A DNA stretch of 32,085 nt from Syntrophomonadaceae bacterium (GTDB lineage Bacteria; Bacillota; Syntrophomonadia; Syntrophomonadales; Syntrophomonadaceae), in contig JAAYRQ010000138.1 of the NCBI GenBank assembly GCA_012518685.1, positions 1 through 32,085 of the forward strand. The letters run 5' to 3'. This document shows, piece by piece, positions 10,286 through 16,399 of the stretch (position 1 is its first letter; each line of letters begins with the position of its first letter). The translations under genes were made by a program, and so were the position numbers. Under the pieces are notes generated by a model. It was not told where the DNA came from, did not search any database, and saw only the letters and a list, made by a program, of their open reading frames with translations.

Positions 10286-10442
10286 ATATTAAATGTTATT
10301 ACTAATATGGGGAGCATTAGCTTCCCTTATTATTTTTATATAATTTGCTTTTTTAAAATAAAAGAGGGGATTTTCATATCATCATAGAAGTTTACAGATA
10401 ATTTAGTTAAATATTTTGTTAAATAAAACGAGGTTTTTAATA

Positions 10443-12749
10443 ATGTCAACTACAAGCAAAAAAACAAAATCTCAAACCAGAAAAGTTAAAAAAAAAGTTA
10501 CCCCTAAAAAATCCTTACCCAAAGAAAAAGGTAAAGAAAAAGCCCCTATGGTTAATAATATCAAGCTAGAAATTATTAGTATTTTATTATTTGTTTTAGC
10601 TATTTTCATTTATATTAGTGTAGCAAAATTTCAAGGCTTACCTGAAGATATAGAATTTATAGGCTTGTTTGGTAGCTACATAATGAAAAGTCTAGTGTTG
10701 GCATTAGGGGAAGCGGCTATTTTTGTGGCTTTTTTTATTTTGCTATGGTCCATTCATATTGGAATTTTAAAAGAGGTCTGGTCCTTACGGATGTGGGGGG
10801 TTAGTCTCTTGTTTTTAGCCATAGTTATTGCTATTGGCATTTATAATATACCTGGTGGTCTAACACCTATAGAAGCTGGACAAAAAGGTATGGGTGGCGG
10901 GTATATAGGAGGGTTTTTGGCTTATATTTGGACTAAATTATTAGGGAGGATAGGTTCTCTCATTGTTTTATGTTTATCTGTAATTGTAGGTTTGTTAATG
11001 ATTATTAATAAGCCACTACGAGATATTTCTGACTTCTTTAACAAACAGCTTAAAATTTTAGGGGCAAAGTTTTCTGACTGGCTTTTTGTAGAAGATGAAG
11101 CTCTGGAGGCAGATATAAGTAAAAATGAAGCAAGTGTTAGACAAGCTATATTGATAAATGATTTGGATGCTAAGGATATTCACTCGGCGGCGGCTGAGCC
11201 TAAATTAAAGCTGGTAGTACCCCCGAAAATTGATGTGTATGAACCCAGCCTCTTAACAGATGAATTTACTAGTGGTGAAGCTATTAATACTAAGGAAGGT
11301 TTGCAACAAGTATTGAAAGATTCTAAATCCAGCACTTATCATAAACCACCCCTCGATTTACTAGCTGATATGGATGTTGAAAGGAATATTGATAAAAAAA
11401 ACATTAAGGATAGTATTGCCGTTTTAGAAGAAACATTCTCCAACTTTGGTATTTTAGTAAAGGTTAACCAGGTTAGTTGTGGTCCTACTGTGACTCGATA
11501 TGAATTAACTCCTGCCAAGGGGGTTAAAGTGAGTAGGATTCTGAGTTTAACTGATGACTTACAATTAAACTTAGCGGCTCCTGGTATAAGGATAGAAGCA
11601 CCTATCCCAGGTAAATCAGCCATAGGTATCGAGGTCCCTAATGTTAAAGTATCTAATGTGGGATTAAAAAACTTATTACAATCACCTAATTTTATAAAAC
11701 TGAAAACACCTTTGGCTTTTGTATTAGGTGAAGATATTACAGGTAATACTGTAGTAGCAAGATTAAGTGATATGCCGCATTTATTAATTGCAGGTTCGAC
11801 AGGTTCAGGTAAAAGTGTTTGTCTAAATAGTATTATAATGAGTCTTATTTTTAATACTAGCCCCGAGGAATTAAAATTAGTTCTAATTGATCCCAAAATG
11901 GTTGAGTTAACAGTATATAATGGTATTCCTCATTTACTTACACCAGTGGTAACGAACCCTAAAAAGGCATCTATAGTATTACGATGGATGGTTACGGAGA
12001 TGGAAAAGAGGTATCGTTTATTTGCACAAAATGGAGTAAGAGATATAGCAAGGTACAACCAAATAAATGATGATAAGTTACCTTTTATCATAATAGTAAT
12101 AGACGAATTAGCAGATTTAATGATGGTTTCACCTGTGGAAGTAGAAGACACTATATGCCGTCTGGCTCAAATGGCTAGGGCGGCAGGTATGCATCTGATA
12201 GTAGCTACACAAAGACCTTCGGTGGATGTAGTAACAGGTATTATAAAGGCTAATATTCCATCCCGAATAGCTTTTGCAGTTTCTTCCCAGGCAGATTCTA
12301 GGACTATTTTAGATATAGGAGGGGCTGAGAAACTACTAGGTAAAGGTGATATGCTCTTTTTCCCTGTAGGGGCTATTAAGCCTTATCGAGTACAAGGAGC
12401 CTATGTGTCTGATAATGATATTGAACAAACGGTGGAATACATTAAACAGTTTGCCGAAGCTGTGGCTACTACTGAGCAATTGGAGGAAATAGAAGCTTCT
12501 TTAGATAATGTGGAATTAGAAGAGGATGAATTATTCTGGGAGGCTGTAAATATTTTTGTAGAAGATCAAAAAGCTTCCGTATCTTTATTACAAAGAAGAT
12601 TAAGAATTGGTTATGCTAGGGCTGCAAGGTTGGTAGATATTATGGAGGATAAGGGTATTGTATCCAAATTAGACAATACTCGCAGAAGGGAAATCTTAAT
12701 AGATAGTGAACAACTAGAAAAACTCCAGACTAGTCGTAAGTTAAGTTAG
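10443..12749 (+). CDS. spoIIIE: DNA translocase SpoIIIE/FtsK family
   Basis: Multiple N-terminal TM segments, 'LIAGSTGSGKSVCLNSIIMSLIF' Walker A, 'IIVIDELADLMM' Walker B, C-terminal gamma winged helix 'SVSLLQRRLRIGYARAARLVDIMEDKGIV'. RBS acgagg supports ATG 10443. Confidence 0.95.
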   Translation: MSTTSKKTKSQTRKVKKKVTPKKSLPKEKGKEKAPMVNNIKLEIISILLFVLAIFIYISVAKFQGLPEDIEFIGLFGSYIMKSLVLALGEAAIFVAFFILLWSIHIGILKEVWSLRMWGVSLLFLAIVIAIGIYNIPGGLTPIEAGQKGMGGGYIGGFLAYIWTKLLGRIGSLIVLCLSVIVGLLMIINKPLRDISDFFNKQLKILGAKFSDWLFVEDEALEADISKNEASVRQAILINDLDAKDIHSAAAEPKLKLVVPPKIDVYEPSLLTDEFTSGEAINTKEGLQQVLKDSKSSTYHKPPLDLLADMDVERNIDKKNIKDSIAVLEETFSNFGILVKVNQVSCGPTVTRYELTPAKGVKVSRILSLTDDLQLNLAAPGIRIEAPIPGKSAIGIEVPNVKVSNVGLKNLLQSPNFIKLKTPLAFVLGEDITGNTVVARLSDMPHLLIAGSTGSGKSVCLNSIIMSLIFNTSPEELKLVLIDPKMVELTVYNGIPHLLTPVVTNPKKASIVLRWMVTEMEKRYRLFAQNGVRDIARYNQINDDKLPFIIIVIDELADLMMVSPVEVEDTICRLAQMARAAGMHLIVATQRPSVDVVTGIIKANIPSRIAFAVSSQADSRTILDIGGAEKLLGKGDMLFFPVGAIKPYRVQGAYVSDNDIEQTVEYIKQFAEAVATTEQLEEIEASLDNVELEEDELFWEAVNIFVEDQKASVSLLQRRLRIGYARAARLVDIMEDKGIVSKLDNTRRREILIDSEQLEKLQTSRKLS

Positions 12750-12782
12750 TTTTTAAGGTATTCTTATAAAAGGAGTAATAGT

Positions 12783-13748
12783 ATGAGGCTTACCTCGCGT
12801 GAACAAGAGATAGTAAATATATTGAAGAAAAATCCGCTAATATCTCAAGAGGAATTAGCTGATGTTTTTGGTATTACTAGATCGTCAGTAGCAGTTCATA
12901 TATCAAATCTAATGAAAAAGGGTATAATACGAGGTAAGGGTTATGTATTCAATGAAGGACCACTTATAACTATAGTGGGGGAATGTTATTTAGATATTAA
13001 TATATATCAAAAGGATTATACTAATTCCCATGTTGAAACTATTGATATAAAATATAAGGGGGTTCCTCTTGAAATTTGTAAAGTTTTCGGTAATTATGGT
13101 ATAAGACCAAAAGTTATAACATTCCTAGCAAATGATCAAGTAGGAGAACACTTCCTTAAACAAATGCAAGAATTAGAGTTAGATACTCAAAACATTCTTA
13201 AGCTTAATGATAGCCGAAGTATTCGTAGGGTTCATATTAATGATACCCTAACTTATGCGGAGGACATTAGTGATTCAGATTATTATGAGGCGATTAAAAC
13301 GAAGGAAAGGTTGCTTTTAAATTCTGATTGCCTAATAACTGATTATAAGTTTGCCACCGAAATTGTTGAAGAAATATTATCTAAAAAACCCGATATATTT
13401 CCAGAGCTATGTACTTATATTATAGATAAGAACTTGCCAGACATACCTGATTATATAAGCAAATTTAAAGTAGTAGTTCTAGGGGTTAATAATACATTAA
13501 AAAGTGAAAGAGCTATTAACACTTTCTTAGATTTTAATTTAGACGCAGATCAAGTATTTGCTATAACTGACGGTAAGTCGGAAATAATAGCTATCAATGA
13601 TAATAAAACACATAGATTTCCTTTATTACCTAACCAAACTTTTTCTGTCGAAGAAAAAATCCCGTCTTTTTTGGCAGGTTTAATATGTGGTATTTTAAAC
13701 AAACATCCTTTAAGACAAGCTATTAGGATAGCGGTAGGTTCTATTTAA
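12783..13748 (+). CDS. Winged-HTH protein with C-terminal PfkB/ribokinase-like domain, apparently catalytically degenerate
   Basis: N-term 'TSREQEIVNILKKNPLISQEELADVFGITRSSVAVHISNLMKKGIIRGKGYVFNE' resembles wHTH-PfkB kinases of the PsuK/YeiI type. The C-terminal half is ribokinase-like, but the GG and GAGD motifs are not recognisable. Confidence 0.7.
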   Translation: MRLTSREQEIVNILKKNPLISQEELADVFGITRSSVAVHISNLMKKGIIRGKGYVFNEGPLITIVGECYLDINIYQKDYTNSHVETIDIKYKGVPLEICKVFGNYGIRPKVITFLANDQVGEHFLKQMQELELDTQNILKLNDSRSIRRVHINDTLTYAEDISDSDYYEAIKTKERLLLNSDCLITDYKFATEIVEEILSKKPDIFPELCTYIIDKNLPDIPDYISKFKVVVLGVNNTLKSERAINTFLDFNLDADQVFAITDGKSEIIAINDNKTHRFPLLPNQTFSVEEKIPSFLAGLICGILNKHPLRQAIRIAVGSI

Positions 13749-13802: not shown

Positions 13803-14543
13803 ATGGGAATAGGAGAAAAATTCAAAGCCGAAAGAATAAAACAAGGTTATTCTTTGCAAGAAGTTGAAGACGATACTAAAATTCGTAAATATTACTTAGA
13901 GGCGATTGAAAATGATAATTACGACTTATTGCCACCCAAAGTATATGCAACTGGTTTTGTAAGAAGATATGCTAAATTTTTAGACTTAGATGTGGAAGAA
14001 TGTGCCCAGATTTTTAAGTATGCTGCTTATGGTTCGAGTGTAAAAGAAGAGTTAATGGAATTGAATCCAACCTCTACACCTACTAGAGGTATAGAGAGCT
14101 CCATAACCTGGAAAAATGTTGCTATTGCATTAGTGTTTTTAATCGCAGTAATATGGGTGGGAGATTTTTTAATAGCTTATTTTACTGAAGGACATAAAGT
14201 CCCTCCCCAAAATAATCTGCCTATAGTTGAAAAGAGCGATCCTGAAGAAGAAAAGCCTCCAGAAGTTGTTAAACCTAATAAGGTAATAAGGGGTGTAGAA
14301 ATTATTGTTGAAGCAGAGCAAAATTGTTGGTTAAGTGTTATAGTAGATAATGAAAGCCAGTATAATGCGACCTTACCAGCAGGTGAAGAATTAGCCTTTC
14401 AAGGAGAAAACAAGATTAGCTTAACAGCTGGTAACGCAGGTGGGATAACTATTACTTATAATGGTGAGAAAATGCCCCCCTTAGGTAATATAGGGGATGT
14501 GAAGGATGCTACTTATACAGCATTAGATAATACAGGAGAATAA
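13803..14543 (+). CDS. RodZ-like HTH membrane protein (HTH_25, TM, DUF4115); YmfM position
   Basis: 'GEKFKAERIKQGYSLQEVEDDTKIRKYYLEAIENDNYDLLPPKVYATGFVRRYAKFLDLD', one TM, C-terminal 'VEIIVEAEQNCWLSVIVDN'. Confidence 0.85.
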   Translation: MGIGEKFKAERIKQGYSLQEVEDDTKIRKYYLEAIENDNYDLLPPKVYATGFVRRYAKFLDLDVEECAQIFKYAAYGSSVKEELMELNPTSTPTRGIESSITWKNVAIALVFLIAVIWVGDFLIAYFTEGHKVPPQNNLPIVEKSDPEEEKPPEVVKPNKVIRGVEIIVEAEQNCWLSVIVDNESQYNATLPAGEELAFQGENKISLTAGNAGGITITYNGEKMPPLGNIGDVKDATYTALDNTGE

Positions 14544-14547
14544 TTAA

Positions 14548-15879
14548 GTGGATATAGGGTTTATAAGTCTAGGTTGTGCTAAAAACCAAGTTGATACCGA
14601 AATAATGATGGCGATTTTGAAGGAAAATGGACATAAAATAGTAAATACGGTGGAGCGTTCTGATTTAGTAATAATTAATACTTGCGGATTTATTAACGAT
14701 GCTAAGGAAGAAGCCATAGATACTATAATAGAAATGGGACAGCTTAAAGAACAAGGGGTAATTGACTATATAATAGCCACAGGTTGTTTATCACAAAGAT
14801 ACGCTAAAGAATTAATGGCGGAAATGCCTGAATTAGATGCTGTGGTTGGTATAGGGGACTACCATAGTATCGGTCAAGTTGTGGAGCAGGTTGTTAAGGG
14901 CGATAAAATAGTTTTAGTAAATAAGCCACCAGAAGTGTTTATAGAAAAAGGCCCCCGTATATTATCAACACCTAAAGGGCTAGCCTATTTAAAAATAACT
15001 GAGGGCTGTAATAATAAATGTACTTATTGTGCTATACCTCTTATTAGAGGCAAGCTTAGGTCTAATTCCCTAGAAAGTTTAATAGATGAAGCGAGATTCT
15101 TAGTTAAAGCTGGGGTCAAGGAATTAGTTCTGATAGGACAGGATACAGCATCCTATGGTCAAGATATTGGATATGAACAAGGATTAAGCAACTTATTGGA
15201 AAGACTCGTGGAAATACCCGATTTAGAATGGATTAGGGTTATGTATATCCACCCAGCCCATTTAACTGCTGATATTATTAAAATAATGGCAAAAGAAGAT
15301 AAAATAATACCTTATATTGACTTGCCTATTCAACATAGTTCTAGTAGTATTCTAAAAAGTATGAATCGAAAACATTCGGTAGAAGACTTATCATTAATAA
15401 TTCATAATTTACGGGAAAATATTAAGGATTTAGTCTTAAGAACTACGGTTATGGTAGGCTTTCCTGGGGAAAGGGAAGCTGATTTTATGGAATTATATGA
15501 TTTTGTAGAGAAAATTGCTTTTGATTGGTTAGGTGTTTTTAAGTTTACAGCTGAAAAGGGAACTCCAGCCTATTTATTACCTAACCAGCTAGATGAAGAT
15601 ATTAAGGAAGAAAGATTAAACAAAATTCTTAAACTGCAAAAGGAAATAACCCGACAAAAAAACATTAACCGCATTAATAGTAAACAAAAAATACTAGTAT
15701 CGTCACGAATAGCTCCTAACTTATATATTGGTCGTGGATATTTTCAAGCTCCTGAGGTCGATGGGGTTACAATGATTAAAAGTAATTGTGCTTTAGAACC
15801 AGGGGCTTTTGCTGAAGTTACCTTAAAAGCGGTTAGGAATTATGATATGATTGGAGAATTTGACAGTGAATCTCCCTAA
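14548..15879 (+). CDS. rimO: Ribosomal protein S12 methylthiotransferase
   Basis: 'GFISLGCAKNQVDTEIM', radical SAM 'KITEGCNNKCTYCAIPLIRGKLRS', 'VMVGFPGERE', C-terminal TRAM. Confidence 0.95.
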   Translation: MDIGFISLGCAKNQVDTEIMMAILKENGHKIVNTVERSDLVIINTCGFINDAKEEAIDTIIEMGQLKEQGVIDYIIATGCLSQRYAKELMAEMPELDAVVGIGDYHSIGQVVEQVVKGDKIVLVNKPPEVFIEKGPRILSTPKGLAYLKITEGCNNKCTYCAIPLIRGKLRSNSLESLIDEARFLVKAGVKELVLIGQDTASYGQDIGYEQGLSNLLERLVEIPDLEWIRVMYIHPAHLTADIIKIMAKEDKIIPYIDLPIQHSSSSILKSMNRKHSVEDLSLIIHNLRENIKDLVLRTTVMVGFPGEREADFMELYDFVEKIAFDWLGVFKFTAEKGTPAYLLPNQLDEDIKEERLNKILKLQKEITRQKNINRINSKQKILVSSRIAPNLYIGRGYFQAPEVDGVTMIKSNCALEPGAFAEVTLKAVRNYDMIGEFDSESP

Positions 15880-16399
15880 TGCCTTAACAATTTCAAGAAT
15901 ATTATTAATCCCAGTATTTATAATAGCTTTATTAGTAGATACTCCGAGATATGATTTAATAGCTTTAGGGGTATTTTTAATTGCTTCTTTTACGGATACC
16001 CTAGACGGGTATTTAGCCCGTAAATTAAAGCAGATTACAAAATTAGGGATTATTCTAGACCCCTTAGCAGATAAAATCTTAATTACCGCGGCTATGATTA
16101 CTTTTGTGGAATTAGGCAGGATGTCAGGGTGGATTGCTATAGTGATAATAGCTCGAGAATTTGCTGTGACTGGTCTTAGGGCAGTAAAGGCTGAAGATGG
16201 GGTAATAATAGCGGCTAGCAATCTCGGAAAGCTTAAAACTGTTACCCAAATAATCGCCTGTATGCTTTTAATTGCACCTTCGCTATACCAGCCATACATT
16301 GCTTTTCCTATTGGAATTTGGGCTATGTATTTAGCAGTAGTTATTACAGTTTTATCGGGCATAGAATATTTTTATAAATTTAACATAATAGATAAATGA
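15866..16399 (+). CDS. pgsA: CDP-diacylglycerol-glycerol-3-phosphate 3-phosphatidyltransferase
   Basis: 'NLPNALTISRILLIPVFI' and the CDP-alcohol phosphatidyltransferase motif 'DTLDGYLARKLKQITKLGIILDPLADK'. GTG 15866 fits the RBS better than track start 15851; overlaps the rimO 3' end. Confidence 0.93.
   Translation: MNLPNALTISRILLIPVFIIALLVDTPRYDLIALGVFLIASFTDTLDGYLARKLKQITKLGIILDPLADKILITAAMITFVELGRMSGWIAIVIIAREFAVTGLRAVKAEDGVIIAASNLGKLKTVTQIIACMLLIAPSLYQPYIAFPIGIWAMYLAVVITVLSGIEYFYKFNIIDK

Follow-up and report, generated by a model that had tools for sequence, protein, structure and literature searches.

The proteins closest to the one described here, referred to as X, are pseudouridine kinases of the PfkB family. 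The wHTH-PfkB pseudouridine kinases (NCBIfam PRK09954, 'sugar kinase' type), encoded in psuK-psuG operons, have the same two-domain architecture and the same fold as X, a near-identical recognition region in their winged helix-turn-helix (wHTH) and, in several families, the same type of operator upstream. These enzymes keep the GGVxRN motif, the equivalents of N14, D16, N143 and K170, GAGD and, in most of them, PNxxE, and they adjoin psuG, whereas X and its orthologs keep none of these motifs as conserved features and sit in a spoIIIE-rodZ locus. E. coli PsuK (PDB 7vtg/7vkp), the top structural match of the X model, differs from X in having no wHTH and in keeping all its ligand and catalytic residues. 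PsuK is a homodimer formed via its beta-thumb, and holds pseudouridine by the residues N14, D16, S30', G41, V42, N45, N143, V166, S167, K170 and D256 (PMC9247573).

Other PfkB-fold proteins are tied to transcription, as X probably is: the plastid fructokinase-like proteins FLN1 and FLN2 are subunits of the plastid RNA polymerase (PMC3409070). Unlike X, they are eukaryotic, lack a wHTH and belong to another PfkB subfamily, and the profile of the X orthologs (alignment A1, see below) gave no significant match to them (E 0.2-0.4). Metabolic-enzyme domains have been reused as regulatory parts in ROK repressors, ThiR and Gal3. The same holds for the transcription factor NrtR, the Nudix-related repressor (PMC6800001). 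The folds of these four cases are unrelated to that of X, and their ligand is a metabolite of the pathway, whereas in X the ancestral substrate contacts are gone too. No description of a wHTH-fused PfkB/PsuK pseudokinase as a conserved family was found in the open-licence literature searched; the reuse of enzyme domains in regulators is already known.

The gene of X and its neighbours lie as follows in the window, i.e. the whole stretch of 32,085 nucleotides that was analysed:

10416 to 12749, forward strand: SpoIIIE/FtsK, upstream syntenic neighbour
12770 to 12775, forward strand: ribosome-binding site AAGGAG of X, read from the sequence
12783 to 13748, forward strand: X, wHTH-pseudo-PsuK protein, 321 aa, uninterrupted ORF with its ATG at 12783
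12783 to 12953, forward strand: N-terminal wHTH of X, residues 1-57
12954 to 13745, forward strand: ribokinase-fold (PfkB/PsuK-like) domain of X, residues 58-321, predicted fold
13803 to 14543, forward strand: RodZ-like protein, downstream syntenic neighbour
14548 to 15879, forward strand: RimO, syntenic neighbour
15851 to 16399, forward strand: PgsA, syntenic neighbour

The gap is 33 bp between SpoIIIE and X and 54 bp between X and RodZ, after which RimO and PgsA follow. X is the sole PfkB match in the window's genome. Pfam recognised HTH_24 at residues 7-50 (2.6e-11) and PfkB (4.2e-7) over residues 62-147 only. The wHTH, described as intact in the initial annotation, is complete: the HTH_24 match and the conserved recognition helix bear this out, the recognition region ITRSSVAVHISNLMKKG being near-invariant among orthologs and common to the intact wHTH-PsuK proteins. 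The AlphaFold model of X, with a mean pLDDT of 90.6 and a pTM of 0.81, exhibits a predicted ribokinase fold with a beta lid. Compared with the PDB by Foldseek, its top match is PsuK with pseudouridine bound (E 6.6e-16, TM 0.64-0.69); 337 PDB matches were obtained at E <= 0.001, and all 50 of the matches listed are PfkB-family kinases.

The positions of the kinase motifs in X, together with a pair of arginines in its last helix, are the following:

13056 to 13073, forward strand: KGVPLE (residues 92-97) in place of the hinge/substrate motif GGVGRN; the Asn equivalent to PsuK Asn45 is gone
13470 to 13490, forward strand: VVVLGVN (residues 230-236) in place of [KT]PNxxE; the motif is gone and the loop shorter
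13650 to 13664, forward strand: EEKIP (residues 290-294) in place of TGAGD, the motif of the anion hole and catalytic Asp
13713 to 13727, forward strand: R311-x-x-x-R315 (RQAIR) in the C-terminal helix of X, from the alignment

The initial annotation had reported the C-terminal signature as lost, and X indeed shows EEKIP at residues 290-294 where its relatives show TGAGD. Its claim for the GG hinge holds in part. In X only half of the hinge is missing (K92 G93), and many orthologs retain GG; the R-N found next to it in intact relatives, by contrast, has disappeared from almost every ortholog. NxxE is a third lost motif, which that annotation did not mention. Of the three observations named there as speaking against its reading, two were checked, a displaced GAGD and orthologs with mostly intact GAGD. 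The first was sought in the profile alignment to PsuK and not found. As to the second, alignment A1, made of 41 full-length orthologs from the Syntrophomonadaceae and their order (the order being the entire class in the genomes sampled here), contains no protein with GAGD or NxxE.

The same was observed in a wider alignment, where GAGD is absent from 43 of 43 inactive proteins and present in 32 intact ones. The catalytic Asp column has a conserved acid in none of these 43 proteins, and the tail after the GAGD position is about 24 residues shorter than in the intact kinases (medians of 29 and 53 residues). Conservation is also gone in the inactive clade at the equivalents of N14, D16, S30', N45, N143, V166/S167, K170 and D256 and at the Asn of PNxxE, as it is over T-G-x-G-D; the Asp that X holds at the PsuK D16 position (D71) is not conserved in the clade. 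G66, G93, G116 and D118 are retained. The loss of the catalytic and ATP-site motifs suggests that X is a pseudokinase without catalysis.

X was found by profile search once per genome in 49 of the 63 genomes of the order. The class orthologs sit between SpoIIIE and RodZ wherever the contig reaches far enough, with rodZ just downstream in nearly all of the 41 loci and spoIIIE usually just upstream. Where X is missing, SpoIIIE abuts RodZ and the remaining locus is unaltered; since these genera keep spoIIIE-rodZ after a clean loss of X, the protein is not indispensable. Among 399 genomes of the phylum, full-length matches beyond the class came from four further families (f14, f30, f62 and f67). 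The 18 loci fetched from them all have RodZ just downstream; SpoIIIE is immediately upstream in 12 and farther upstream in one more, and none of the 18 proteins has GAGD or PNxxE. The motif loss is thus repeated in 59 loci (the 41 aligned orthologs of the class and these 18), far beyond chance. The same phylum search yielded 22 wHTH-PfkB proteins with GAGD, in a few cases altered to GGGD or GSGD; neither SpoIIIE nor an aligned RodZ neighbours any of their genes. One protein of family f67, at locus L164 (3946-4560 on the reverse strand and beyond), is an inactive wHTH-PfkB that retains GGTGRN and has neither GAGD nor PNxxE; it may represent a step on the way from intact PsuK to the inactive clade.

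Trees were computed after the motif columns had been taken out of the alignment. One branch separates all 43 inactive proteins from the intact ones, with an SH-aLRT of 99 for the whole proteins; the same split was recovered with the kinase-like domain alone, together with E. coli PsuK and PDB 3kzh (94/99, 96% of bootstrap trees). L077 and L164 are long-branch rows. E. coli PsuK falls within the intact side, so that the intact state is ancestral and one loss explains the data; PfkB kinases in general carry GAGD, and it is on this that the direction rests, the root not being inferred by the method. Inactive and intact proteins share on average 56% identity in the wHTH and 17% in the kinase part. 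The combined alignment (A2) gave a profile with PsuK as its top PDB match (1.4e-40), while the A1 profile, from the inactive proteins alone, matched PsuK weakly (0.005).

Next to the gene and in the same orientation, 61 of 61 intact loci and 0 of 59 inactive loci carry a psuG relative, which identifies the ancestor as a wHTH pseudouridine kinase; two of these neighbours were confirmed as PF04227 at about 1e-135. The intact wHTH proteins show 97-100% conservation at the positions that hold pseudouridine in PsuK, and are very probably pseudouridine kinases bearing their own DNA-binding domain. By psuG linkage and ligand residues, an ancestral pseudouridine kinase function is assigned to a large group annotated merely as 'sugar kinase', and for the inactive group the kinase annotation is unwarranted. 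The X clade offers a many-sequence case, dated by the tree, of a bifunctional kinase and wHTH regulator dividing its two jobs: in the intact relatives the gene remained beside psuG, and a single lineage retained the regulator only.

Distant PsuG relatives (PF04227, E from about 1e-14 to 6e-19) were seen in 9 of the 63 genomes of the order, e.g. L235 (783-1583, contig C53 of genome G000), L236 and L237. They adjoin ribose-type ABC transporter genes or a cluster resembling uroporphyrinogen decarboxylase and corrinoid-protein genes. They are unlinked to X and were rejected as true PsuG.

An operator motif was learned de novo from non-redundant regions upstream of the intact genes only, and then tested on the inactive genes. 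In the intact genes it reads TAA[AG]CA-NN-TG[CT]TTA and lies mostly 19-50 bp before the start. Outside the window's family, 8 of 19 inactive genes carry it above the 99th percentile of shuffles (0.19 expected), and none of 200 shuffle sets reached the observed mean. Within that family it is found in 2 of 30 upstream regions (0.3 expected), and the region upstream of X in the window, when scanned, was unremarkable. These counts suggest that self-regulation goes back to the psuK ancestor and has mostly disappeared in the window's family. As the wHTH is near-invariant there while the operator is mostly gone, the targets would lie elsewhere. Exact operator matches in ten genomes numbered 38, against 8 for a reversed control pattern, and no shared intergenic target emerged from these sites; in the window's genome both exact sites (n = 2) lie inside ORFs and pointed to no target gene.

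Many psuK-psuG operons (e.g. L078, L087 and L099) have a perfect palindrome, TAAGCATATGCTTA, about 36 bp upstream of their start; it is likely the operator of the pseudouridine operon. Locus L206 (Syntrophomonadaceae) has two exact operator-like palindromes, at 1501 and 1592, in one intergenic region upstream of an mqnE-like radical-SAM gene; they could be a candidate target or the site of another regulator.

Conservation of the wHTH and the operator outside the window's family support the reading, already put forward in the initial annotation, of X as a transcription factor, and suggest that the X of the window binds DNA. We consider it fairly probable that X is a transcription factor of wHTH-pseudouridine-kinase descent, that its pseudo-PsuK domain has been repurposed for regulation, and that X acts as a dimer at an inverted repeat and probably binds a ligand. 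In one ancestral lineage, a copy of such a kinase would have come to lie in the spoIIIE-(mnmH)-rodZ locus. Its ATP binding, its catalysis and its contacts to pseudouridine would have disappeared, with purifying selection preserving the fold and the wHTH. X would most likely bind DNA as a dimer at an inverted repeat of the TAARCA-NN-TGYTTA type, its operator presumably still lying, outside the window's family, on its own promoter region. Retained as a regulatory part, the pseudo-kinase domain would dimerise and probably bind a ligand, possibly an anionic one, close to the invariant R311 and R315 on what was the nucleotide side. Sensing by this domain, as proposed in the initial annotation, is plausible, perhaps half likely. 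Since the pseudouridine-binding residues were lost with the ATP site, any sensing would not go through pseudouridine bound in the ancestral way. Intact and inactive proteins share the recognition helix and the operator, which makes the change from enzyme to regulator tractable with few constructs.

The main rival, which we consider rather unlikely, is that the pseudo-kinase domain is a mere dimerisation scaffold for the wHTH, with no small-molecule ligand and with constitutive or protein-contact control. The substrate- and ATP-binding residues are both gone, and few residues of the kinase domain are conserved across families (G66, G93, G116, D118, P283, G299, G303, R311 and R315), as a scaffold would allow; the strands corresponding to the beta-thumb of the PsuK homodimer (PMC9247573) are also predicted in X. 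What argues against it is a dN/dS near 0.1 in the kinase-like domain and the pattern of newly conserved residues. R311 and R315, in the last helix, are invariant in 43 of 43 inactive proteins and not conserved in intact kinases, P283 and G303 are present in at least 95% of the inactive proteins, and D263, Q285 and Q312 are invariant within the class. They align in or near the ATP-side segments of PsuK, namely the small ATP loop, the strand preceding the large loop and the C-terminal helix, and may face one pocket. R311 and R315, and within the class also D263, Q285 and Q312, lie far from the beta-thumb and would be needless for a plain dimer interface, and the invariant R311/R315 pair would suit an anionic ligand.

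The reading of X as a ligand-binding regulator can be extended tentatively. X may represent an undescribed transcription-factor family, vertically kept in the spoIIIE-rodZ (division/cell-shape) locus of several Bacillota families, in which a pseudouridine kinase emptied of its substrate and ATP sites was rebuilt around R-x-x-x-R near the old nucleotide pocket and senses a new ligand. If so, a nucleotide-like signal would possibly be coupled to chromosome segregation, envelope or tRNA-modification genes.

A more specific proposal, which we regard as doubtful, is that X controls, or responds to, something connected with the modification of the tRNA wobble uridine by MnmH, the tRNA 2-selenouridine synthase (TIGR03167), its neighbour in the ancestral locus. 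The gene mnmH directly follows X in 13 of the 59 inactive loci, from five families, and in none of the 61 intact ones; it lies between X and RodZ in, e.g., L147, L149, L150, L068 and L160. Against such a link, genomes of the window's family keep X without mnmH and family f2 keeps mnmH without X. The gene arrangements SpoIIIE-X-mnmH-RodZ in f3, SpoIIIE-mnmH-RodZ in f2 and SpoIIIE-X-RodZ in the window's family indicate that X and mnmH were lost independently from a common arrangement; independent loss of one or the other is seen across families f1, f2 and f3 of the order.

That X is still an enzyme, with an altered active site, is very improbable. In its favour, the ribokinase fold is retained and purifying selection is strong. 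Against it, 43 of 43 aligned proteins have lost GAGD and NxxE at once with the C-terminal segment of the ATP side and every sugar contact, and the catalytic column has no conserved acid.

Selection on X was estimated from 13 close pairs by the simple NG86 method, with dS high in several pairs. The wHTH has dN/dS values of 0.00-0.07 and the kinase-like domain values of 0.07-0.15, similar to those of RodZ and RimO from these pairs. X is under strong purifying selection, at a dN/dS of about 0.1, and of about 0.03 in the wHTH. The idea of a degraded copy on its way out deserves next to no credence, as the initial annotation had argued from the uninterrupted ORF: X is deleted in some genera of the family and the window's protein diverges more than most, but the ORF is uninterrupted in 49 of the 63 genomes of the class and present in at least six families, dN/dS is far below 1 in both domains and the wHTH is near-invariant.

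A link of X to sporulation was considered and rejected as non-discriminating, SpoIVA being present in 54 of the 63 genomes of the order, including those without X. At the upstream border of the gene, many Syntrophomonadaceae (L032, L037, L046, L054, L055, L064 and L067) conserve AATAAACTATGTTAGTATGA over the stop codon of spoIIIE; it is absent in the window and is possibly a candidate promoter for X.
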